A stretch of DNA of 64,000 nt from Streptomonospora alba (GCF_000826685.1 NZ_JROO01000010.1:124001-188000), one strand, 5' to 3'; shown: positions 40,345 through 64,000, counted from the stretch's first letter. Notes: generated from the sequence alone by a model not told the origin. Translations and numbers: made by a program.

Positions 40345-40989
40345 TCAGCCGTTGGTCGGCGGCCCTGGTCCAGTCGCGGCGTACCGGGCGGCGATGGTGC
40401 GGACGGCCTCGTCGACCACCTGAGCCACGCGTTCGGTGCTCACCTCCCAGCCCGGCACGAGGAGTGTCGGCCAGAAGACGTAGTTGGAGATCATGCCCAG
40501 GAACTGGGTGGCGGCGAGGTCCACGTCTTCGACCCGCACCGTCCCCGCCTCGTGCTCGGCTAGGAGGTAGCCGCGTACGGACTCGAAGTAGGGCATCTTC
40601 CCGCGCGAGAACTGCGCATTGGCGAGTTCGGGGAATCGCGGCAGCTCGGCGATGACGATTCGGAACAGGTCGGTCATCCGGGGCTGGCTCAACAGCTCGG
40701 CGTAGCGGCGACCGATGGTGCTGAGCCCGTCCACGATGTTGCCTGCCGGCGGAGGATCCTCTTCGCCAGCGGTTGACCAGGACTCGGTGACCATGGCGTC
40801 GAACAGGGCGGCCTTGGTCGGAAACTGCTTGAACAAGGTGGCCCGCGAGACCCCCGAGCGCTCTGCGATCCGCGCCAGCGACGTCCGGTCGTAGCCCAAC
40901 TCGAGGAACAGTGCGGTCGCGGCCGTCAAGATCAGTGCGCGCTTCTCCTGGGCGATGCGCTGGTGGTACGTCGATGCGACCTTGCTCAT
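40345..40989 (-). CDS. TetR-family transcriptional regulator
   Basis: 214 residues. N-terminal helix-turn-helix (KRALILTAATALFLELGYDR, then ARIAERSGVSRATLFKQFPTK). The ATG at 40989 (MSKVASTYHQRI) is preferred; a longer frame to 41064 would cross the promoter and operator. It is divergent from the SDR and nitroreductase operon, and a palindrome at 41054-41071 lies between them, so it is very probably the repressor of that operon. Confidence 0.9.
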   Translation of the reverse strand: MSKVASTYHQRIAQEKRALILTAATALFLELGYDRTSLARIAERSGVSRATLFKQFPTKAALFDAMVTESWSTAGEEDPPPAGNIVDGLSTIGRRYAELLSQPRMTDLFRIVIAELPRFPELANAQFSRGKMPYFESVRGYLLAEHEAGTVRVEDVDLAATQFLGMISNYVFWPTLLVPGWEVSTERVAQVVDEAVRTIAARYAATGPGPPTNG

Positions 40990-41014
40990 GGACCGAGCAT
41001 ACGAGGTGAGTGGC

Positions 41015-41043
41015 TTGACTCGCCACTGTCGCCGACCTAGTCT
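41015..41043 (+). promoter_or_regulatory. Sigma70-like promoter of the SDR operon
   Basis: TTGACT (41015-41020), a 17-base spacer, then TAGTCT (41038-41043). The predicted start site (about 41050) is immediately before the TetR palindrome, so bound repressor would block initiation. Confidence 0.5.
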
Positions 41044-41053
41044 CAAGTAGATG

Positions 41054-41071
41054 GTGAGTCGCACGGCTCAC
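41054..41071. promoter_or_regulatory. TetR operator in the SDR/TetR divergent region
   Basis: GTGAGTCGCACGGCTCAC is an 18-base palindrome with two internal mismatched pairs, ending 62 bases before the SDR start. A related weaker half-site (GTGAG then CTCGCCAC) lies at about 41006-41025. Confidence 0.55.
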
Positions 41072-41133
41072 CACTGGCCGCCGTTCATCACTGGTGATCC
41101 CGGTCAGCCACCCACGTACCGAAGGAACAACTG

Positions 41134-41913
41134 ATGCCCCGCTTCGACGACCAGACCGTGCTCGTGACCGGTGGGACCGGCGGTCAGGGATCGAGCCACG
41201 TACGCGCCTTTCACGCGGAGGGAGCGAACGTGGTGATCGGCGACATCGACGCCGAACGCGGCGCCGCTCTCGCCGACGAGCTCGGGACCCGCGCTCGCTT
41301 CACCCACCTCGACGTCACCGACGAGAGCTCGTGGTCCGCCGCTGTGCTAGCCGCCGAGAGCGCCTTCGGCGCCCTGAACGTGCTCGTCAACAACGCGGGC
41401 GTGCAGAACCCGCCGGCAACGATCGAAAACACGGACCAGGCCACGTGGTCGCGCATCCTCGACATCAACCTCACAGGGACCTTCCTCGGCATCAAGGTCG
41501 CCGCCCCCGCTCTGCGCCGCGCAACAGGGGGAGCCATCGTCAACATCGCCTCGACGATGGGCCTGGGCGGCACGGCGCACTACGCGCCGTACGTCGCCGG
41601 CAAGTGGGCCGTGCGAGGCCTCACCCAAACGGCAGCACTCGAGCTCGGCCGCGACCACATCCGCGTGAACACCATCCACCCCGGCGTGATCGCGACCTCC
41701 TTCATCCACGAACCAGCAGCCGGCGCCACCGCGGCAATCGCCGACTTCTACTCACCCGAGCCGTTCGCCATCCCCCGGCTCGGGGAGCCGACCGACGTCA
41801 CCCGGCTTCTCCTGTTCCTCACGTCATCAGACGCGTCGTTCATCACGGGGTCGGAGTACGTCATCGACGGTGGACTCCTCCTCGGGCCCGCCCTTCAGAC
41901 CGAGACCGCATGA
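41134..41913 (+). CDS. Short-chain dehydrogenase/reductase
   Basis: 259 residues with the classical SDR motifs: TGGTGGQG (12-19) for NAD(P) binding, NNAG (86-89), S140 and the YVAGK active site (Y153, K157). Asp37 after the second strand suggests NAD preference. It oxidises or reduces an alcohol/ketone. GAAGGA precedes the ATG. Its stop overlaps the next start (ATGA), so it is coupled to the nitroreductase gene; both are under the divergent TetR protein. The C-terminal DGGLLLGPA is the usual SDR ending. Confidence 0.93.
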   Translation: MPRFDDQTVLVTGGTGGQGSSHVRAFHAEGANVVIGDIDAERGAALADELGTRARFTHLDVTDESSWSAAVLAAESAFGALNVLVNNAGVQNPPATIENTDQATWSRILDINLTGTFLGIKVAAPALRRATGGAIVNIASTMGLGGTAHYAPYVAGKWAVRGLTQTAALELGRDHIRVNTIHPGVIATSFIHEPAAGATAAIADFYSPEPFAIPRLGEPTDVTRLLLFLTSSDASFITGSEYVIDGGLLLGPALQTETA

Positions 41914-42386
41914 GCACTCCGGACACGACCGGATGGAACGACTCCGCACGGGACGCGTCTTTATCCCACCTGCCCGAGCACATCCGGCGAGCCATCGAGA
42001 TCACACCCGCCGCAGGCACCGGCGAACGGATCATCGACATCACGACACTGGGGCGCCGCACCGGCCGGCCGCGCCGCATCGAGATCTTCTTCTACCGAGC
42101 TGTGGGCGTCACCTACCTGTGTAGCGGCGCCGGCGGGGCTGCTACCGACTGGCATGCGAACCTTCTCGCCAATCCCACCTTCACCTTCCACCTCAAGAAC
42201 GGGATCCGTGCAGATCTGCCTGCACGGGCCACGCCGGTCACCGCCCCAGCCGAACGTCAGGCCGTGCTGGCGGAGATCGTCGCGGATCTCAATCAGCCCC
42301 ACGACCCCGGCACCATCCGGCCGACTCGGCTCGAAGACTGGGCCGACAGCCGGCTGATGCGCATCAGCTTCCGCCATCGGCCGTGA
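41910..42386 (+). CDS. Nitroreductase/quinone reductase family protein (Ddn/DUF385-like)
   Basis: 158 residues: ERIIDITTLGRRTGRPRRIE, FFYRAVGVTYLCSGAGG and DWHANLLANPTFTFHLKNG are the core of the deazaflavin (F420)-dependent nitroreductase fold. These enzymes reduce quinones or nitro compounds with F420H2. Coupled to the SDR gene by an ATGA overlap. A role in handling a quinone or xenobiotic with the SDR is inferred from context. Confidence 0.88.
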   Translation: MSTPDTTGWNDSARDASLSHLPEHIRRAIEITPAAGTGERIIDITTLGRRTGRPRRIEIFFYRAVGVTYLCSGAGGAATDWHANLLANPTFTFHLKNGIRADLPARATPVTAPAERQAVLAEIVADLNQPHDPGTIRPTRLEDWADSRLMRISFRHRP

Positions 42387-42908: not shown

Positions 42909-45900
42909 TCACGCGAGGAGGGCGGCTATGCGGCTGATGTAGTCGTCGCGTCCGATGAATCCGCCGGCTCGGCCGGGTGGTACGGCGAGTCCGTCGACGA
43001 GGATCCCGAGGCGATCGGCGACGTCTTCCGCCGCCGTCGTGCGGGCGGTGCGGAGGAGGTCGGCGTCGCCGGGAAGCAGCGACCCCTGATTGAGGTGCCA
43101 GGCGGCGGAGTCGAGGACGACGTCGAGCCCATGGAGGCGTCGAGCCGATTCGAGCGCGCTTCGCCACGGACCGCTCATGGCGGCGAGGAGGCGGTCGAAC
43201 TCCTCGAGAGTGCGTCGTGTGAGGTGGACTCGGGCAAGCTCCTCGATCTCGGCGAGGTAGGGGTTGGGATCGCCGGGGTCGACGCGGTGGCTGAGTTGGT
43301 CGGCGAGAACGCGCTCGTGCAGGGAAACGAGGCGCAGTGTCGAGCGCGCGTCGCTCGTTCCGGGGCCGTCGGGCGCGGGGACGGGTGAGGTGTCGGTTCC
43401 GTCGAGGAGCTGTTTCCCAGCCTCAAGCAGCAGGAGCCGGGTGTCGCCTCCGGCCGCGTGGAAGGATTTGGCCATGTCCTCGTAGGCGGTGATGCGATTG
43501 GTGTGCAGTACGCCTTGGAAGCCGCACAGCCGCCGGCAGGTGGCGGTGACAGACTCCACCGTGGTGGCCGCAGCGGCTTTGGCGAGGGTGCGGTCGCGGT
43601 TGGCGGCGAGCCAGGGCGCATAGGCGGTGCCGCTGTCCGTCGCGCGCGGCTCGGCGGTGTTGGTGCCGAGGCGTTCGTCGGTGAAGTCGCGACGCACCTT
43701 CTCGACGTAGGAACCTGTGGCGTAGACACGTGCGATCGCCGAGGCGAGATCGCTGCTGTGGGTGGTGAACGTGAGCGCGGGGGTTCCCGGATCGCCGATG
43801 ATCCGCTGCGCGTTGTAGCGGAAGGCGATGGCGACCGCGGCGCGGGCGGCCGAGGCGAGGGCGACGGCGGCGAAGACGACGGCGGCGTTGACTCCTCCCA
43901 GGGACCGGGCGAGCCGCTGCGTCGGCGTCAGGGGATCGGTGACGCCGCCGCCGGTGATGACGGCGGTGTCGCGGAGCCAGTAGCCGAACGGGATCTCGGC
44001 GTCCCGGAAGCGGATCACCGAGTAGTCGAGTGGCACCGGCGCTCCGCCGGGCAGGATCGTCACATCGGCTCGGGGGTGCGGGAAGCGGAACGCGAACGCG
44101 TGGATTCCGTGGTCGGAGTCGTCGACGACGAGGCGGGCGTTGACGACCGCGGTGCGTCCGAGTCCGGTCCAGCCGACGTTGGGCATGATCTTCAGCGCAG
44201 CATCCTCGGGGGTGTGGAGCGTGAAGGTACCGCGCTCGCGGTCGTAGCGGGCCTCGGTGCGGATGGTGGTCTGGGATCCGCCGCGTCCGAGTTCGGTGGC
44301 GACGATCGCGCCGGGGGCGTCCATGGTGTCGAGGTCGGCGGTAAGGGCGTCCAGATCGTCGTCGGTGTGCCCGCATTCGACCAGAGCGGTTGTGGCGACG
44401 CCGTAGTGCACCATGGCGGCGTGCATCATGGCGGGATCGACGATTCCAGCCCATTCCATACCGGCCAGCAGGCGCATGGGGGAGTCGTGCAGCGCTCGGG
44501 CCGGCCCCAGGGCTCGGCCGAACGCCTGGAGGCGATGGTAGACGGCGCTGACGCCGGTGAGGTTCCAAGAGAACTCGGGCAGGTCGAGGAGTTCGTCGAG
44601 TTCGGCCCACACGGGCATGCGGTCGTGGAAGAGCGGATGCAGGGGCATTTCACCACCTCGATGTGCCGGTCGCGGCGAAGGTCGGGCAGGTGTTGCGGAA
44701 ATCGCCGCCGTTTCCCGGTCCGGTGGCGGGGAGGGCTCGTCTCCCAGTTCGGTGTACCAGTAGCGCTGCAGATTCCAGGTGCGCTTGGGAAGTCGCGGAC
44801 GCGCCGCGGTCTGGTCGGGCGGGGCGGCGAGGACGGCGTGGGCGTTGGCTCCGGAGAGTCCGAAAGAGGAGACGGCCGCCCGGCGACGGCCGTCCACGGG
44901 CCAGGGTTCGCAGGCGGTCGGCACGCGAAGCGCCGAGCCGTCCCAGTCGATGGCGGGCGCGAGGGCTGAGAGGTGCAGGGAAGCGGGCACCTGCCCGTGT
45001 TCGAGGGCGAGGACCGCCTTGAGGAAACCCGCGAGCCCGGCGACGGGTTCGAGGTGGCCGATGTTGGTCTTGACGGATCCGACGAGACACGGGCGCGCGT
45101 TGCCGCCGTAGACCTCGTGGAGGGCGGCGAGTTCGATGTCGTCGCCGGTACGGGTCCCCGGGCCGTGGGCCTCGACATAGGCGATCTCGCCGGGGCGGCG
45201 TCCCGCGTCGGCCAGGGCTTTGCGCATCATGCGAACCTGGCCCGGGCCGCTGGTGGCGACGATATTTCGGCCGGAGCGGCCGTTGGCGTTGACCGCGCTG
45301 CCTTCGACGACGGCGTGGATCGGATCGCCGTTGTGCAGGGCGTCGGAGAGGCGCCGCAGGAGGACGGCGGCGACGCCTTCGCCGCGAGGGTAACCGTCGG
45401 CGTCGACGCTGGCGAACGCGGAACGCCCGTGGGGCGAAAGGGCTTTCGCGAGGCCGTGGGAGGGTCCCCCATGGGGGTTGAGGATCAGGTGCGTTCCGGC
45501 GGCGACCGCGGTGTCGACTTCGCCGCTTCGGAGCGCCCGGCAGGCGGTGTGGACAGCGGTCAACGACGCCGAGCACGAGGTGTCGAGCGTGAGGCTGGGG
45601 CCTTGGAGGTCGAAGAAGTGCGACACCCGTCCGGACAGGAAGCTCTTGAGCCCTCCGCCGGACAGCGTGTACATGTTCGGCGGCTCAGCGGAGGTCGAAA
45701 GGTCCCAGTAGTCGGAATGGGACTCGCCGACCCAGATCCCGCTGCGCGGCCCCGCGAGGTCGGCGGCCGAGAGTCCGGCGTCGTCGAAGGACTCCTGGAC
45801 GGTCATGAGTAGCAAACGCAGGCGCGGATCCGAGCGGTGGGCCTCACGAGGGCCGAACCCGAAATGCCGGGCGTCGAACCGGTCGACGCCGTCGACGAAT

Positions 45901-46787
45901 CCGCCTGCGTTCATGATCTGCGGCTCTTCGTCGTCGCGGACGCGGTCGGCCGGGACGGGGCCGACGGCGCTGCGGCCGGTACGGAGCAGTTCCCAAAAGG
46001 AGGCGGGGTCGGCGGCTCCGGGGAACCGGCAGGCCATACCGATCACGGCGACGGGATCGGTGCGATGCCGGTCGACGGTGTCGCGCACGACGATGCGGAT
46101 CGATTCGTCGGGTTGTTCGGTGACGAGGAAATGGCCGGCGTCGACGAGATCGACGGAGATGTCAGCGTGGGTCGTCTCGCTCCATTCCGTCAGGCTGCCG
46201 GGGTCGAACAGCGGGTCCCGCCTGCCGCAGACGGCCGTGATGGGACAGGTCAGCGTGTACGGCGCGGGCCGGTAGCGACCCACGGCCGCGGCGTCGGCGC
46301 GGATGGCGTCGACGTTGGCACGGACCGCGTCGCGGGCGGATTCGGGGGCCCCGCCCAGCCGGATGACCTCGTCGACTACACCGTCGTCGGAGAGTTCGTG
46401 CTGGGAGGAGAACCGGCTCGGAGGCAAGTGGGGAGGCGGCGCGGAGAGGACGAACAATCGTTCGGGGCCGGTGCCGTGGCGTTGGCTGAGCAGGGCGGCC
46501 ACGGCGTGCGCGAGCCAGGCTCCCATCGAGTGGCCGAGGAAGTAGTAGGGCCCGTTCAGGAGGGGGATGACGTCGGAGGCGATGCCTTCGGCGAGTGTGT
46601 GCAGGGATGTGACGAGCGGCTCGTGTCGCCGCGGGCCTCTCCCGGGCAGCAGCACCGGGAGCACGTCTATACCGGGAACCCGCCAGTCCCCGAATAGGGA
46701 CGAAGGCGCGCCCGAGTAGGGGAAGCAGAGCAGGTGCTGGTCGGCGGCGGGGTCGGGGGTGTGTGCGAGCCACGGAGTCGACGCCAC
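42909..46787 (-). CDS. Thioesterase-ketosynthase-acyl-CoA-oxidase-like fusion protein
   Basis: 1292 residues with three domains. (1) Residues 1-240 are a type II thioesterase: LLCFPYSGAPSSLF, nucleophile GHSMG (S87), D191 in GRRDPLF, H219 in AGHFLV. (2) Residues 244-660 are a PKS-type ketosynthase: DPVAVIGMACRFPGA, C405 in DTSCSAS, H541 in EAHGPGT (usually EAHGTGT), H578 in KTNIGH; a post-KS linker LPKRTWNLQRYWY follows. (3) Residues about 716-1292 resemble an acyl-CoA oxidase: ALKIMPNVGWTGLGRTAVV, FRDAEIPFGYWL, GFQGVLHTNRITAY, then AAGGDTRLLLLEAG where acyl-CoA oxidases carry the catalytic Glu. No AT, KR, DH or ACP domain is present, so chains must come on a separate ACP. The GTG start has AAGGAG. 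It is the last gene of the operon. I know no characterised protein with this order. Confidence 0.88.
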   Translation of the reverse strand: MASTPWLAHTPDPAADQHLLCFPYSGAPSSLFGDWRVPGIDVLPVLLPGRGPRRHEPLVTSLHTLAEGIASDVIPLLNGPYYFLGHSMGAWLAHAVAALLSQRHGTGPERLFVLSAPPPHLPPSRFSSQHELSDDGVVDEVIRLGGAPESARDAVRANVDAIRADAAAVGRYRPAPYTLTCPITAVCGRRDPLFDPGSLTEWSETTHADISVDLVDAGHFLVTEQPDESIRIVVRDTVDRHRTDPVAVIGMACRFPGAADPASFWELLRTGRSAVGPVPADRVRDDEEPQIMNAGGFVDGVDRFDARHFGFGPREAHRSDPRLRLLLMTVQESFDDAGLSAADLAGPRSGIWVGESHSDYWDLSTSAEPPNMYTLSGGGLKSFLSGRVSHFFDLQGPSLTLDTSCSASLTAVHTACRALRSGEVDTAVAAGTHLILNPHGGPSHGLAKALSPHGRSAFASVDADGYPRGEGVAAVLLRRLSDALHNGDPIHAVVEGSAVNANGRSGRNIVATSGPGQVRMMRKALADAGRRPGEIAYVEAHGPGTRTGDDIELAALHEVYGGNARPCLVGSVKTNIGHLEPVAGLAGFLKAVLALEHGQVPASLHLSALAPAIDWDGSALRVPTACEPWPVDGRRRAAVSSFGLSGANAHAVLAAPPDQTAARPRLPKRTWNLQRYWYTELGDEPSPPPDRETAAISATPARPSPRPAHRGGEMPLHPLFHDRMPVWAELDELLDLPEFSWNLTGVSAVYHRLQAFGRALGPARALHDSPMRLLAGMEWAGIVDPAMMHAAMVHYGVATTALVECGHTDDDLDALTADLDTMDAPGAIVATELGRGGSQTTIRTEARYDRERGTFTLHTPEDAALKIMPNVGWTGLGRTAVVNARLVVDDSDHGIHAFAFRFPHPRADVTILPGGAPVPLDYSVIRFRDAEIPFGYWLRDTAVITGGGVTDPLTPTQRLARSLGGVNAAVVFAAVALASAARAAVAIAFRYNAQRIIGDPGTPALTFTTHSSDLASAIARVYATGSYVEKVRRDFTDERLGTNTAEPRATDSGTAYAPWLAANRDRTLAKAAAATTVESVTATCRRLCGFQGVLHTNRITAYEDMAKSFHAAGGDTRLLLLEAGKQLLDGTDTSPVPAPDGPGTSDARSTLRLVSLHERVLADQLSHRVDPGDPNPYLAEIEELARVHLTRRTLEEFDRLLAAMSGPWRSALESARRLHGLDVVLDSAAWHLNQGSLLPGDADLLRTARTTAAEDVADRLGILVDGLAVPPGRAGGFIGRDDYISRIAALLA

Positions 46788-47593: not shown

Positions 47594-48826
47594 TTAGGCG
47601 GTGGTGAAGGCGAGGACGGCGTTGTGGCCGCCGAAGCCGAAGCTGCTGGAAATGGCGTTTTCCAGCGTCTGTGAACGGGCGTCGCCGATGACGAGGTCGA
47701 GGTCCTCGGCGCCTTTGCACGGTGTGGCGAGATTCGCTACGGGCGGCACGGTTCGGGTGTGTACCGCGAGCACGGTGTAGGCGGCCTCGATGGCGCCGGC
47801 CGCCCCCATCGTGTGGCCGGTGACGCCCTTCGTGGAGGTCACCACAGCGGTCGGTGCTGTGGCGGCCACGACCCCCGCCTCGACCGCGTCGCCCGTGGGG
47901 GTGGAGGTGGCGTGGGCGTTGACATGGGCGATGTCCCGTGGGGAGAGGCCGCCGTCGCGGCACGCCTGTGCGATCGCCTCCTTGGCGCCGCGGCCGTCGG
48001 GGGCGGGCGAAGTGATGTGGTACGCATCCGACGTGGTTCCGTACCCGGCCAACTTGGCGTAGCGGCTGATGCCGCGGGCGGCGGCATCGGACTCTCGTTC
48101 GAGCACGAGGACTCCCGCCCCCTCGCCCATGACGAACCCGTCGTGTTCGGCGTCAAAGGGCCGCGAAGCCTGGGCGGGCGGGAACCGGCTCCCCCGCGAC
48201 AAGGCCCGCAGCTTGTCGAATCCCGCCACCTGCAGCGGCGTTACGCTGGCGTCGGTGCCGCCGGCGACGACGACGTCGGCGGCACCTGAGCGCAGCAGCC
48301 CCAGTGCGGTGCCGATCGCCGTCGCGCCCGAGGCGCAGGCGGTGGAGACGACCACGGCCGGACCGGTGGTGCCCAGCTCGATCGACAGGATGCCAGCAAC
48401 CATGTTCGCCAGGGCGTTGGGCAGAAACCGGGCGTTGACGGCGTCCGGGCCCTCGGCCATGAGCCGTGCGTGGTTGTCTTCGAGCGTCTGCACCCCGCCG
48501 AACGCGGTCCCCATAACGACGGCCACGCGGGCCTCTTGCACCGCAGTCTGCGTGAGGCGGGCGTCGCCGAGGGCTTCTTGCGCTGCGACCAGAGCGAACT
48601 GCGTGCTGCGATCGTACCGGCGGGAGAGGCGCCGGCCGGTGAGGCGGCCGGCGTCGAATCCGCCCGGAACGGTACTGGCGAATCCGACAGGTGCGTGCGC
48701 GAGGGAGTCGAGGGCGCCGGCGGTCGGAATCCCGGAACAGACGGCCCTCCAGTTGGAGGCACGTCCGACGCCGGCGGGAGTGACGAGCCCAACGCCGGTG
48801 ACCGCGACCGGAGGGCTATCCGTCAC
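47594..48826 (-). CDS. FabF-type 3-oxoacyl-ACP synthase (ketosynthase II)
   Basis: 410 residues with an intact decarboxylating triad: C164 in STACASGA, H305 in NAHATSTPTGD and H338 in GHTMGAAGAIEA. The ends MxxxPVAVTGVGLVTPAG and SFGFGGHNAVLAF are canonical. It extends an acyl chain with malonyl-ACP. Because Cys is present it is a true synthase and not a chain-length-factor partner. GTG start; its first 11 bases overlap the ACP gene, so the two are coupled. It has a second, different ketosynthase for company in the fusion protein. Confidence 0.93.
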   Translation of the reverse strand: MTDSPPVAVTGVGLVTPAGVGRASNWRAVCSGIPTAGALDSLAHAPVGFASTVPGGFDAGRLTGRRLSRRYDRSTQFALVAAQEALGDARLTQTAVQEARVAVVMGTAFGGVQTLEDNHARLMAEGPDAVNARFLPNALANMVAGILSIELGTTGPAVVVSTACASGATAIGTALGLLRSGAADVVVAGGTDASVTPLQVAGFDKLRALSRGSRFPPAQASRPFDAEHDGFVMGEGAGVLVLERESDAAARGISRYAKLAGYGTTSDAYHITSPAPDGRGAKEAIAQACRDGGLSPRDIAHVNAHATSTPTGDAVEAGVVAATAPTAVVTSTKGVTGHTMGAAGAIEAAYTVLAVHTRTVPPVANLATPCKGAEDLDLVIGDARSQTLENAISSSFGFGGHNAVLAFTTA

Positions 48827-49067
48827 GGTGCTCAGCTCCCGCCTTCCCGGAGACGACGCCGACTACCTGCTCGACGGTGCTCTGTGTGGTCAGTTCGTCT
48901 TCACCGATCCTGATGCCGAACTTGTGCTGGAGGATGTCGCCGAGTTCGACGGCGGCGACGGAATCGACCCCGATATCCTCAAGGGTGTTCCCAGGAATTA
49001 TCTCGTCGGCTGGTATATCGAATTCCTCGCTCAGGATTCCGGATACCTCTGCGGATATATCAAGCAA
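48816..49067 (-). CDS. Acyl carrier protein
   Basis: 83 residues from a TTG with AAAGGAA upstream. LEDIGVDSVAAVELGDILQ carries the phosphopantetheine Ser (S36) in the GVDS motif; the rest is the acidic four-helix ACP fold. It is the only carrier protein in the operon and must serve both ketosynthases, the reductase and perhaps the oxidase-like domain. It is the first gene of the operon, and the following KS gene overlaps its end. Confidence 0.92.
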   Translation of the reverse strand: MLDISAEVSGILSEEFDIPADEIIPGNTLEDIGVDSVAAVELGDILQHKFGIRIGEDELTTQSTVEQVVGVVSGKAGAEHRDG

Positions 49068-49572: not shown

Positions 49573-50547
49573 GTGTCCTTTTCAGGAAATACAAGGCCAA
49601 ACCATGCAATGTGGACTCGTTTCTTTTGTGGGAGATCGCCCTATTTGGACCACGAACCCATTCGGAAAAACATGCGGCTGCGGTTTCACTCGTTTTCGAT
49701 CGGCGATAACTATATCGCTGGAGGGCGGTCCGCCGGCGGTCGATTGAGTTCCAGAAGATATGTGAGGGCTGGTGTGGGAAGAACACGGATATTGGTGTGG
49801 CTCGCCGCGTCCGGTGTGCGCAAGGGCGAAATCGTCGTATTGCAGTGCTTCCGTGATCCCCACCGGGGTTGGGTGCCCTGTCCGGCGGCGCCGCTGGTCG
49901 CCGCCCATGCGGACGGCCGAGGACGCGAGGTGCGCACGTATGAACTCGACATGGCCCCTGAGGCCGGAGAAGACGCGACTGTCTGCGCTGCCAGCTATAT
50001 CGATCCCCGGACCGGTCTTCCTGTCGGTGTTGCGATCGGTGCCCGCTCCGACGATGCCGGGGCGATGGCGATCGCGCGCGACGTCACGGAGTCCTGGATG
50101 GCCGTCATGCGGTCACGGCGCCTACTCCTGTGTGACCGGAGTTGTGGGTCCGGGTGCGCGCGAATCGATTCGTCCGACGTCGTCTTCGTGCTCGGGGACG
50201 CTCCTGCAGCGGAGGCCTGCGGCATTGCCGTTCGACCTGAGCACCCGCGTGCGGCGGTACACGTCGTCGACGACCGCATGGTCGTCGCACCGGAATGGCT
50301 CGCCGGACGCAGGGATGTCGGAGTGGTTCTGGGGGAGAACGTCCGCCCCACGCTCGTTCGCACACTGCTCAGTGCCCTCGACGGCGTGGGACCGGTGGTC
50401 GTCGACCACTGTGTGCCCCGGGCCGGCGGGGCGGGCGTCCAGGCGCCGACGTCGGTCGACGCGCGAGGCGATGCGCGTCACCGCGTTCCGGTATCGGGAC
50501 GCCAAAGTGCGGTGGCCCGCGCCAGTAGTCCGCGTGCGACCTCATGA
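49573..50547 (+). CDS. Degenerate IspH/LytB-like protein (start uncertain)
   Basis: The open frame allows 324 residues, but the first 60-75 come from AT-richer DNA and may be untranslated; in-frame GTG/TTG codons near 49762-49792 are alternatives. By eye the core resembles IspH (HMBPP reductase). VPCPAAPLVAAHADGRG sits like the family's ATCPLVxKVHxEAR Cys, LLLCDRSCGSGCARI like ICYATQNRQ, and the C-terminus VHVVDDRMVVAPEWLAGRRD, VGVVLGENVRPTLVRTLL like the end of IspH. The N-terminal PRGFCAGV motif is not visible, so a normal 4Fe-4S site is unlikely. It is divergent from the ACP-KS operon. Its 3' end overlaps the regulator gene by 70 bases. Confidence 0.4.
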   Translation: MSFSGNTRPNHAMWTRFFCGRSPYLDHEPIRKNMRLRFHSFSIGDNYIAGGRSAGGRLSSRRYVRAGVGRTRILVWLAASGVRKGEIVVLQCFRDPHRGWVPCPAAPLVAAHADGRGREVRTYELDMAPEAGEDATVCAASYIDPRTGLPVGVAIGARSDDAGAMAIARDVTESWMAVMRSRRLLLCDRSCGSGCARIDSSDVVFVLGDAPAAEACGIAVRPEHPRAAVHVVDDRMVVAPEWLAGRRDVGVVLGENVRPTLVRTLLSALDGVGPVVVDHCVPRAGGAGVQAPTSVDARGDARHRVPVSGRQSAVARASSPRATS

Positions 50548-51818
50548 GCGGCGTGGGGCCGGACACGGGACCGCAGGACGGCGAGTGCCGATCGAGCCCG
50601 TCCGCTGCGAATCGAGGGATAGATATCCAGGAAGCGGTGCCAGCTCGACACCGCTTGTTCGAGTTGTCCCTGATCCAGGTGGTGCTCGGCAAGGCGCGCG
50701 CAGATGAGAGCTGTCGAGCGTCGCTCGCACGCCGGGCGCCACTGCACGGCGTTCGTGAAATCGAGAGTGGCGCCGGACCGGTCCCCCAATAGGCTTCGGA
50801 CAACGGCGCGCTGGTGGGCGAACGCTGCCCAGTGGTAGGTGACCGTTCCGGGGCCGCTCGTCGCCGCCTCCATGTACCGCTCGGCCGAGCTGAGGCAGGA
50901 GAGCGCCGCGTCCCGGTTGTCCCTACCGGCGTGGGCGACGGCGAGCTGGCCATGAAGGAAAGCGCTCGACGCGTCGTCGGTGCCGCGCGCAGCGGCATCG
51001 ACGGCCGCGCCGGCGAGATCGAGCGCCTGGTGGCGATGTCCGAGATGCCACGCCTGCACGCTCATCGCACGCAGCGTCACCGCATACCCCCACGCGTCGG
51101 CACCTTCAGCCGCGAGCAGGAGGGAAGCCCGGTAAAACCGTTGCGAAATACCGTGCTCCTCCAGATCGAAATAGGCGAAGCCGCACAGGTAGCTGAGCCT
51201 CGCAGACGTGCGAAGCAGCCGGCGCCGTGTGTCGGTACTGCCCGGAGAGCGCAACCAGGGGGCAACGGTGCGGTGAAGGTATTCGCCGAGGAACGGGGCG
51301 ACCCTTGACGCGCCGTGTACCGCCTCGGTTCTGGAGAAGATCTCCAGCATCTCCTCGCTGGTCTCGAGCTCGTCCTCTCCCACAGGTCCCGAATACGGGG
51401 TTTGGCGGTGTGCCGGCGGGAATTCGGTGGCGGGGCGCCACACGGGAACGTCCAGGTCGTGCAGGTTGAAGACGTATCGATGATCCCATCCGCTCTCGGC
51501 GGAGGAGCCGAGCCTCTCGAGCTGGGTCACCGCGTCGCCGCCGTCCTGCTCTGCGGAGCCGCCGCCGGCGAATCCCGCGTCTGCCGCGGTGACCGTTCGG
51601 CCCAGACTCCGTGACAGGACTTCCGCCACGAGGTCGGGCACAGGCCACCGAGGACGGGTCCCCGACCGCCACTGACTCACCGAGGCGCGCCCGTACCTCA
51701 GGCCCACCCCCATCTCCGCACCTATCGCGTTGACCTTCTTCGCCAACTCCTCGCCGCTCAATCGTGCTTCCTGCTGTAGCCGGATCAGACTCTGATTCGA
51801 GACTGGTTCGTCCACCAT
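50478..51818 (-). CDS. XRE-type regulator with TPR-like C-terminus
   Basis: 446 residues. The N-terminal helix-turn-helix (LIRLQQEARLSGEELAKKVN, then YGRASVSQWRSGTRPRWPVP) is followed by a long helical TPR-like region (about 170-430). Such proteins are common pathway regulators at actinomycete biosynthetic loci, where the TPR part senses a signal or peptide. It is convergent with the IspH-like gene and likely regulates the 42.9-49.1 kb operon. The ATG is preceded by a weak ribosome site and an AT-rich region (51840-51990). Confidence 0.85.
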   Translation of the reverse strand: MVDEPVSNQSLIRLQQEARLSGEELAKKVNAIGAEMGVGLRYGRASVSQWRSGTRPRWPVPDLVAEVLSRSLGRTVTAADAGFAGGGSAEQDGGDAVTQLERLGSSAESGWDHRYVFNLHDLDVPVWRPATEFPPAHRQTPYSGPVGEDELETSEEMLEIFSRTEAVHGASRVAPFLGEYLHRTVAPWLRSPGSTDTRRRLLRTSARLSYLCGFAYFDLEEHGISQRFYRASLLLAAEGADAWGYAVTLRAMSVQAWHLGHRHQALDLAGAAVDAAARGTDDASSAFLHGQLAVAHAGRDNRDAALSCLSSAERYMEAATSGPGTVTYHWAAFAHQRAVVRSLLGDRSGATLDFTNAVQWRPACERRSTALICARLAEHHLDQGQLEQAVSSWHRFLDIYPSIRSGRARSALAVLRSRVRPHAAHEVARGLLARATALWRPDTGTR

Positions 51819-53707: not shown

Positions 53708-54508
53708 TTGCAACGCATCCTTCGTAAGCCGGTGGCGATGGCTATCGCTCCGCTGACACTGGCATTCCTAGTGGGAGGGATGACGCCCTCCATGGCGGCG
53801 GCCCCGGAAGCCAAGGTCCCAGCAGGAGGTCAGGGCTCTGCCGCCACGCCTGCTAGCAATGCGGATGGGGCGTGCTCGACCGAGGAGTCCTCGGCGGGAG
53901 CGCTGACCGAGATGACCCTGGTCGAGGACCAGGAAGCGCGCGACCTGCCGGGTGCGGTCTCCGAGGCCGTGAAGAACGGAGAGATCTCCGTCCAGGCTCC
54001 GCAGAGTGCGTTGTCCCACGGGCAGACCAAGGTCTACACCGTGGATGCTGAGGACAAGGACACTACGTTCACCTCAGTGACCATCCCCGTCGGCGGGGAC
54101 TACAGCATGTTGAGCAACCTCACGGTTCTCTTCAACGAGAGCGGAGACATCGTCCAGTACGGCGAGACGCTCATCAGTGAGAACGACGCCGGAAACTTCA
54201 ACATCACGAGTTTCACGGACGGCGAGCTCGTGAACAGCAACGACACGGATCTGCCCTACATGACAGACGCCCAGCTGCAGCAGGATGCGGCCAGCGGTGA
54301 AGCGATGGCTACGGCGGGGGCCGGATCTACGGCCGCCTGCGTCGCGGCCGTTCTTGGCGTAAGTGGCGCCACCGCGTATCTTATCGTGGGTGCCTGCACA
54401 GGCGCGTGCACGGTTCCCGGGGTGGGAACGGCGGTATGTGTCGCGTGCATCGGCGCCTACGCCACTGTCGGTGGAGCGTCGATCACCGCCGTCGCCAGCT
54501 GCTTCTAG
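53708..54508 (+). CDS. Secreted protein with Cys-rich hydrophobic C-terminus (halocin C8-like bacteriocin candidate)
   Basis: 266 residues from a TTG with an excellent AAAGGAG site. A signal peptide (about 1-31: basic RKPVAMA, hydrophobic APLTLAFLVGGM, cleavage near SMAAA) shows export. The middle (about 60-205) is acidic and soluble. The last 60 residues (207-266) are Gly/Ala/Val-rich and hydrophobic with six Cys (211, 230, 234, 244, 247, 265), two in CTGAC and CVAC. That layout (signal, acidic domain, Cys-rich hydrophobic C-terminal peptide) resembles halocin-C8-type precursors, in which the C-terminal peptide is the toxin and the N-terminal part gives immunity. The similarity is structural, judged by eye. 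A small membrane protein follows after 10 bases. Confidence 0.6.
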   Translation: MQRILRKPVAMAIAPLTLAFLVGGMTPSMAAAPEAKVPAGGQGSAATPASNADGACSTEESSAGALTEMTLVEDQEARDLPGAVSEAVKNGEISVQAPQSALSHGQTKVYTVDAEDKDTTFTSVTIPVGGDYSMLSNLTVLFNESGDIVQYGETLISENDAGNFNITSFTDGELVNSNDTDLPYMTDAQLQQDAASGEAMATAGAGSTAACVAAVLGVSGATAYLIVGACTGACTVPGVGTAVCVACIGAYATVGGASITAVASCF

Positions 54509-62297: not shown

Positions 62298-62543
62298 ATG
62301 ACTGAACTGCTCGACGATCCGCGCTTCGATCACGTAGTACTCGTGAACAACCAACGGCAGCACAGTCTGTGGCCTGCGTCGGTCGCAACGCCCCAGGGGT
62401 GGGTGCCGGCGTATGGTCCGGCTTCCAGGGGAGACTGCCTCGACTACGTGCGGCAGCACTGGGCCGACATCCGCCCCGCGAACGTCCCGGACACCCGGTG
62501 CGACCACCGATCCCCAGGCACCGGGGGCCGCCTTGAGCGATGA
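62298..62543 (+). CDS. MbtH-family protein
   Basis: 81 residues: DDPRFDHVVLVNNQRQHSLW, then GWVPAYGPASRGDCLDYVRQ and HWADIRP contain the conserved S-L-W and D-C-L-x-Y-V residues of MbtH proteins. They bind NRPS adenylation domains and are needed for their folding and activity. GGAGA precedes the ATG. The NRPS gene begins inside its last codons. The C-terminal tail (PDTRCDHRSPGTGGRLER) is longer than usual and non-conserved. Confidence 0.95.
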   Translation: MTELLDDPRFDHVVLVNNQRQHSLWPASVATPQGWVPAYGPASRGDCLDYVRQHWADIRPANVPDTRCDHRSPGTGGRLER

Positions 62544-64000
62544 GCAGCAGGCCGGGACCGCCGTTCCCGACTCCACGCGACTGTCCTTCGGTCAGGAGCG
62601 GTTGTGGCTGCTACAGCAGCTCGACCCGGCCAGCACCGCGTACAACGTCCCGCTCGCGCTGCGTTTCCACGACGGCCTCGACCCGGAAGCGCTCGACCGG
62701 GCGCTCGGCGCGCTCGTGCAGGAGCATCCCGTGCTCCGATGGGTGTTCGCCGTGGACTCCTCGGGCACGCCGGTCGCCAGGCCGGTGCCGTACTTCCGTG
62801 TTCCGGTGGAACGACGGAGCACCGGTCCCGGCGAGGACGACTGGCGGGCGCACGCGGACGAACTGGCCGCCGAGCCGTTCGACCTCACGGCGGGCCCCCC
62901 GGTGCGTGCGATGGTGGTCGAATGCGCCGACGGGTCGGCCGTGCTGTGTCTGGTAATCCACCACATCGTCTTCGACGGCCGGTCGGCCCAGGTCCTGACC
63001 GACGATCTGACGGCCCTTTACCGGTCGAGGACACCGCCGGCGCGCGAGGCGACGTATGAGGATTTCGTCGCTTGGCAGCGTTCGGCCGCGAGCGCCGATT
63101 CGGTCGCCGAGCACCTGCAGTACTGGCGGCGGGAGCTCGACGGATTCGAGCGGTTACGGCTGCCGACCGACCGCCCACGAGCGCCCGGCCTCGGATATGC
63201 GGGCGATCATGTCGAATTTGAACTGCCCGCCGAGCTGACGGCGGAACTGCGTGCGTTTGCGTTGCAGCATTGGTCTGCGGTTTCCAGCGCAGTGGCGGCC
63301 CTGTTCCAGGTGCTGATGTCCATCCACGCCGGGCAGGAGGACGTGACGATCGGATCGGTGCTGTACGGCCGCGACGACCGCCGCTTCTCCGACGTCATCG
63401 GCTTCTTCGTGAACACGGTGGTGTTGCGCACCCGCATCGAACGCTCGACGTCGTTCCGCGAACTGCTCCGGCAGGCGCACGGCAAGGTAATGGCGGCACA
63501 CACCCATCAGCGGGCGCCGTTCGAGCAGGTGGTCGCGGCGGTCCAGACGGAACGGGAACCGGGCCGCAATGCGATTTTCGACGTCGTGTTCGTCCACCAC
63601 GGGGAGTTGTCCGCACCCGATGAGAACGACCGGATCACCCCTCTGCCGTGGACGGTCGGGACCACCCGGTTCGACCTGGAACTGGCCACCTACGTGCGGA
63701 ACGGCGTGCTGCACGGCACGTTGACGTTTCGCTCGGGTCTTTTCCACCGCTCCACCGCGACGCGGCTGGCCGACCGGTTCGCCCGGCTTGTAGAACAGGC
63801 GCTCGACCAGCCGGACCAGCCGCTCTCCCGGCTGGACCTGCACTGCGCGGCGGAGAGCCGTCGCCGGGAGGAGCGCTGGCGCGCTACCGAACGCCCGGTC
63901 GCCACTCGGTCGCTTGGAGCTCTGCTGGAAGCGGAGGTCGCACGAACGCCCGACGCAGTCGCCGTGGTCGCGCCGGACACCCGGCTTACCTACGGGCAGC
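62533..64000 (+). CDS. Nonribosomal peptide synthetase, N-terminal part (C-A), runs off the window
   Basis: Open to the right edge; 489 codons seen. The TTG at 62533 (LSDEQQAG) after GGGGGCCGCC is the only sensible start and overlaps the MbtH gene by 11 bases. A condensation domain spans about 15-430: RLSFGQERLWLLQQL, active-site HHIVFDG (143-149), GFFVNTVVLRTRI, RAPFEQVV. From about 460 an adenylation domain begins (LLEAEVARTPDAVAVV, TYGQ). A C domain at the very N-terminus means this protein either receives a chain from another enzyme or uses an acyl starter. The A-domain specificity lies outside the window. Confidence 0.93.
   Translation, partial: MSDEQQAGTAVPDSTRLSFGQERLWLLQQLDPASTAYNVPLALRFHDGLDPEALDRALGALVQEHPVLRWVFAVDSSGTPVARPVPYFRVPVERRSTGPGEDDWRAHADELAAEPFDLTAGPPVRAMVVECADGSAVLCLVIHHIVFDGRSAQVLTDDLTALYRSRTPPAREATYEDFVAWQRSAASADSVAEHLQYWRRELDGFERLRLPTDRPRAPGLGYAGDHVEFELPAELTAELRAFALQHWSAVSSAVAALFQVLMSIHAGQEDVTIGSVLYGRDDRRFSDVIGFFVNTVVLRTRIERSTSFRELLRQAHGKVMAAHTHQRAPFEQVVAAVQTEREPGRNAIFDVVFVHHGELSAPDENDRITPLPWTVGTTRFDLELATYVRNGVLHGTLTFRSGLFHRSTATRLADRFARLVEQALDQPDQPLSRLDLHCAAESRRREERWRATERPVATRSLGALLEAEVARTPDAVAVVAPDTRLTYGQ

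Follow-up and report, generated by a model that had tools for sequence, protein, structure and literature searches.

How does a single chain come to carry a thioesterase (TE), a ketosynthase (KS) and a domain resembling acyl-CoA oxidases (ACOX), and what could such a chain do? The question is raised by a gene of Streptomonospora alba that lies in a stretch of 64,000 nucleotides, here called the window (Table 1). The original prediction placed the three domains in one 1292-residue chain, and Pfam, profile and fold comparisons agree that all of them are present there. The catalytic residues that it named, S87/D191/H219 and C405/H541/H578, were also found. In an alignment of seven TE-KS sequences S87, H219, C405, H541 and H578 are invariant, and D191 is replaced by Glu in Prauserella shujinwangii. 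Within the KS part, Pfam recognises ketoacyl-synt at residues 244-483 (5.8e-68), Ketoacyl-synt_C at 491-606 and KAsynt_C_assoc at 611-665. The match of ACOX_C_alpha1 (PF22924) to residues 977-1128 is weak (8.6e-9), yet above its cut-off. Omega values of 0.14-0.43 across the TE, KS and ACOX domains (0.25 for the last) indicate purifying selection. An AlphaFold2 model of the TE-KS part, which was built from six close sequences only and had a pLDDT of 36.8, was left out of the analysis.

Table 1. Features of the fused gene and its surroundings, with positions counted from the first nucleotide of the window
Feature	Position	Strand	Evidence
Fused TE-KS-ACOX protein, 1292 aa, GTG start	42909..46787	-	ORF call, Pfam, homologous fusions
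Thioesterase domain, residues 18-233	46089..46736	-	Pfam PF00975 2.2e-33
AT-less PKS-type ketosynthase domain, residues 244-665, C405/H541/H578	44793..46058	-	Pfam, alignment
WNLQRYWYTE (WNLRRYWY) after the KS, like the post-AT linker motif of PKS modules	44748..44777	-	Conserved in TE-KS alignment
Pro-rich linker of 33 residues, derived junction	44649..44747	-	Third-position GC, omega, junction comparison
GAGGTGG...ATG at codon 714, apparently the former ribosome site and start codon of the ACOX gene	44646..44660	-	Junction comparison
ACOX-like domain, residues 714-1292, complete ACOX fold	42912..44648	-	AlphaFold2 model, structure match
Gly1113 at the catalytic Glu position of acyl-CoA oxidases	43449..43451	-	Alignment with AtACX1, clade comparison
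Ketoreductase (FabG-like SDR), 253 aa	46812..47573	-	Pfam, NCBIfam
FabF-type ketosynthase, 410 aa, Cys/His/His present	47594..48826	-	Pfam, NCBIfam
Acyl carrier protein (ACP), 83 aa, Ser in GVDSVAAVEL	48816..49067	-	NCBIfam acyl carrier protein models
NsdA-family TPR regulator, upstream of the operon	50478..51818	-	NF053720 2.3e-89

A chain of this kind could be an artefact of sequencing or assembly that joins separate genes, and in Pseudonocardiaceae the same genes are indeed separate. However, the same fused frame without a stop is present over its full length in three genomes at 90-93% identity: the one studied here, a second one of the same genus (G005, 93%) and one of another genus (G011, 90%), whose matching contig belongs to Nocardiopsaceae bacterium YIM 96095. 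This rules out assembly errors at 42909-46787, which the original prediction had named as a possible flaw; with the purifying selection on top, an artefact is extremely improbable. The operon is present with the two genes unfused in Amycolatopsis alkalitolerans, A. orientalis DSM 43388, Prauserella flavalba, P. shujinwangii and Sciscionella sediminilitoris. There, the TE-KS protein ends in a sequence of the RYW(Y/S) type, and the TGA of its gene overlaps the ATG of the ACOX gene (ATGA). The three fused proteins group as a single clade of the ACOX tree, and this clade falls inside the proteins encoded by separate genes, so that, judged from these sequences, the fusion is the derived state. As this clade nests within a Pseudonocardiaceae group, the tree also suggests lateral transfer. 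The A. alkalitolerans locus and the record labelled A. orientalis DSM 43388 (the pair L054/L058) are 99.7-100% identical over the operon and the upstream genes, and their downstream flanks differ, next to a recombinase gene. This near-identity reflects either a recent transfer or a labelling problem.

The junction itself still bears traces of the former gene boundary. The linker has an omega of 1.3, that is, it is unconstrained, in contrast to the values in the domains, and its third-position GC, over 24 codons, is unlike that of coding DNA. Codon 714 still has GAGGTGGTGAA ATG, or a close variant of it, in each of the three fused genes. No stop is left at the junction, so a ribosome finishing TE-KS must run on into ACOX, and the internal start could yield free ACOX in addition. 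The fusion would hold the oxidase and the KS together, and the internal start may add a supply of free oxidase. Since the chain arose by fusion, and the closest relatives have two separate genes in its place, the order of its domains carries little mechanistic meaning. The fusion is thus real, conserved and derived, and the ACOX clade that lacks the catalytic Glu, described below, is the more interesting part of the finding.

A TE in front of a KS was part of the arrangement for which the original prediction knew no matching assembly-line architecture, but this order is not unique. Nocardiopsaceae bacterium YIM 96095 encodes a second TE-KS chain, of the order TE-KS-AT-ACP (L135:7302-11189, minus strand), and an N-terminal TE on an NRPS-PKS has been described for Entotheonella and more than 50 other bacteria (PMC12858407). 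The TE-KS-AT-ACP protein resembles the fusion in having the TE before the KS, with 38.6% identity over TE-KS, and differs from it in having its own AT and ACP. It has an AurF-type N-oxygenase and an MFS transporter as neighbours. Further TE-KS matches, in Methylosinus and on contig C36 of G011, turned out to be separate genes with a stop between them. In the literature searched we found nothing matching a TE-KS-ACOX protein or an ACOX/KASIII/AfsA cluster. The TE of the fusion has the PF00975 domain with Ser-Asp-His expected of a type II thioesterase, but it is not free-standing, as TE is joined to KS in 8/8 loci. The KS resembles those of modular and AT-less (trans-AT-like) polyketide synthases, with an intact Cys-His-His triad and about 45% identity to modular PKS KS domains. 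Unlike a modular type I PKS, the chain lacks an AT and an ACP and has its TE at the N terminus. The motif that follows the KS is similar to YPFQRxRYW, which we take to be the post-AT linker motif. Because of this motif and the likeness to modular KS domains, the KS plausibly originated, as far as its sequence tells, in a PKS module that lost its AT and ACP.

The fused ORF closes an operon with the order ACP–FabF-type KS–KR–[TE-KS]–ACOX, where KR is the ketoreductase. The compact operon that had been predicted is borne out: all genes lie on one strand, ACP and KS overlap by 11 bases, and gaps of 20 and 24 bases separate KS from KR and KR from the fusion. The statement that an ACP is absent holds for the chain but not for the operon, which has its own ACP gene. 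No AT gene is found in the operon. The core of the operon is kept in seven further loci, or six if the near-identical Amycolatopsis pair is counted as one, and an ACP orthologue heads all seven (7/7). The FabF-type KS is 66-71% and the KR 74-79% identical to the counterparts in the Pseudonocardiaceae operons. The flanks are mostly different, and apart from those of the Amycolatopsis pair, the few that are shared comprise the NsdA gene. It also adjoins the operon in the second genome of the genus (G005, 90%) and in P. shujinwangii (43%), and its product is possibly the operon's regulator. Because the flanks are so little shared, the operon looks self-contained. An SDR, an F420-dependent reductase and a TetR gene are also adjacent (40345-42386), but nothing equivalent adjoins the operon in G005, and they were excluded. 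The related loci compared share no DH, ER or P450 gene next to the operon, which makes the product hard to predict.

The original prediction had asked for a model of the fold, and that of the ACOX part turned out to be a complete ACOX fold. The AlphaFold2 model (pLDDT 84.4) aligns with Yarrowia ACOX1 (5y9d) over 558 of 579 residues, with a Z of 32.5 and an rmsd of 3.0, and a profile built from this part and related proteins matches acyl-CoA oxidases of plants, animals and yeast along the greater part of its length (4.3e-48 for AtACX1). The residues T118, E119, R282, G376 and G379 (domain numbering) in the flavin-region motifs are invariant, and these conserved motifs alone suggest that FAD is bound. 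The domain thus shares the full-length fold and the flavin-region motifs with the peroxisomal-type oxidases AtACX1, rat ACOX-II and Yarrowia ACOX1. It differs from them in that the catalytic Glu of their YEG/FEG motif is Gly, and in its location with ACP, KS and KR rather than with beta-oxidation genes. The motif AGG at residues 1112-1114 is of the xGG type that replaces YEG/FEG in the decarboxylating benzylmalonyl-CoA dehydrogenase IaaF and in 3-sulfinopropionyl-CoA desulfinase (PMC8360864). In IaaF, YEG is changed into GGG, and loss of the 2-carboxyl group has been proposed to replace proton abstraction, with O2 as acceptor; the motif of the desulfinase is AGG (PMC8360864). The desulfinase (5ahs) is among the best fold matches outside the oxidases. 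However, IaaF and the desulfinase belong to other branches of the superfamily, use CoA substrates and have no KS genes, whereas the domain studied here is a full-length ACOX.

Across the loci the position of the catalytic residue holds either Glu, in canonical ACOX and Aco-type proteins, or Gly, rarely Ala or Thr. The loss of Glu corresponds to one branch of the ACOX tree (SH-aLRT 100, 27 versus 22 rows), and Trp937, Tyr1102, Asp940, Tyr922 and Ser838 are also characteristic of the Glu-less clade. One of the two patterns in the genome scan behind the Pseudonocardiaceae loci was the AGG motif itself, and loci from score-based searches were therefore also used to check the Glu/Gly split. A KS or KASIII gene lies within 8 kb of the Glu-less ACOX gene in 46 of 53 loci, an AT gene in 29/53 and an AfsA-type gene in 11/53, counts that include some near-duplicates; several of the loci without KS or KASIII are at contig ends. 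Glu-bearing loci have a KS or KASIII gene in 5/17 and an ScbR-type receptor in 7/17, near-duplicates included. As five Glu-bearing loci are also near a KS, the link between Glu loss and KS is strong but not exclusive. In L138, L140, L141 and L151 a Glu-bearing ACOX gene lies directly beside a KS, a third context that is distinct from the avenolide loci. Two kinds of neighbourhood of the Glu-less gene meet in a plasmid cluster of Streptomyces violaceusniger, which has KASIII, AfsA-type, Glu-less ACOX, SDR, ACP and FabF-type KS genes. In an Actinomadura-like genus (g72; L048, L049, L063-L093) most genomes carry the Glu-less gene, which in the Actinomadura loci examined is usually beside an AT gene with KASIII nearby. 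We found no reaction or product for any member of the clade in the literature searched.

An ACOX relative with a known biological role is the avenolide synthase Aco, which serves the butenolide autoregulators of Streptomyces and shares 29% identity with the ACOX of the fusion; the Aco-type protein compared was identified by its ScbR/P450 neighbourhood. Aco-type proteins keep the Glu and adjoin ScbR receptors and a P450. The ACOX of the fusion does neither, and the missing Glu and the different neighbourhood exclude it from that group. This kinship could nevertheless mean that the domain is an ordinary desaturase with a relocated base, as in isovaleryl-CoA dehydrogenase, and that the unsaturated chain cyclises to a butenolide-like signal. 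Tyr1102, Asp940 or Tyr922, conserved in the clade, could serve as the base, and AfsA-type genes and the NsdA-family regulator are found at related or adjacent loci. We consider this unlikely: the Glu that Aco retains is gone in the whole clade, no Glu was seen at the isovaleryl-type position when the alignment was inspected by eye, and neither a P450 nor an ScbR receptor is conserved beside the operon. Plain acyl-CoA-oxidase-style desaturation, one option of the original prediction, is doubtful too, since Gly stands in the place of the catalytic Glu and the clade as a whole has lost that residue.

We propose instead, with about an even chance of being right, that the locus is a self-contained mini polyketide/fatty-acid synthase operon with base-independent, carrier-tethered flavin oxidation. 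The anatomy of this operon is firm; the reaction type, the order of steps, the loading of the ACP, the product and the role of the TE are inferred. The cell's own malonyl transferase, an AT assumed to come from primary metabolism, would load the ACP. Chain extension would fall to the FabF-type KS together with the AT-less KS in the fused protein, and reduction to the KR, as their intact active sites suggest; the ACOX-like domain, with its complete fold, would bind FAD and oxidise the ACP-bound chain. The TE may then release or lactonise the product; the loading or proofreading put forward in the original prediction is a possible role of the TE as well. Since the catalytic Glu is Gly, the oxidation is probably not begun by a Glu taking the alpha proton; most likely, the alpha carbanion or enolate would come from the substrate itself: the substrate may lose an alpha-carboxyl group, which is what has been put forward for benzylmalonyl-CoA dehydrogenase, or it may be a beta-ketoacyl chain. 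By analogy, the ACP-bound substrates may be 2-carboxyacyl or 3-oxoacyl groups. As the product we expect a small oxidised acid or lactone, possibly a signal. The predicted combination of a thioesterase with elongation and flavin oxidation of a carrier-bound acyl group is a fair reading, and the operon contributes the ACP that the chain lacks, along with another KS and a KR. The domain order, being derived by fusion, is of little weight here.

Two further readings of the ACOX domain have to be weighed. It might be a flavin monooxygenase hydroxylating the alpha carbon of a beta-ketoacyl-ACP, which the KASIII or KS adjoining most clade members would make; to our knowledge, there are also monooxygenases of the ACAD fold that lack the Glu. 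The full ACOX fold including the C-terminal domain is retained, however, and the operon shows no flavin reductase, so that this reading is decidedly unlikely. The missing Glu could also mean that the domain is catalytically dead and acts as a scaffold or a binding partner for acyl-ACP. Against this, the domain is under purifying selection, its flavin-region motifs are retained and the clade is widespread, and such a role is very improbable.

On its own the fusion is a curiosity of one lineage, yet it identifies a thioesterase, an AT-less ketosynthase and a Glu-less ACOX as partners. Such a set points to small biosynthetic operons that form an uncharacterised family; most of the examined Actinomadura loci have an AT-ACOX-KASIII version of them. 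More tentatively, and with the chances somewhat against it, the Glu-less clade of the ACOX fold may represent a new class of carrier-tethered, base-free flavin oxidases, decarboxylative or enolate-dependent, which would act in KASIII/AT/AfsA or ACP/KS/KR pathways of actinomycetes, some of them hormone-like, and which is here fused to TE-KS. If decarboxylative or enolate oxidation does take place on a carrier protein, it would extend natural-product assembly by one kind of reaction and possibly reveal a family of signals outside Streptomyces. Gly1113 offers a direct test position, consisting of a single residue.

Two other regions of the window deserve mention. An NRPS condensation domain lies at its end (62413-64000), where genes of PKS/NRPS size run beyond it (also in L050); this region is about 13 kb upstream of the operon and shows no sign of belonging to it. 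At 53708-54508, on the plus strand, a secreted-looking protein of 266 residues is encoded, which has no Pfam match and a Cys-rich hydrophobic C-terminal peptide, and which recalls precursors of the halocin C8 type.
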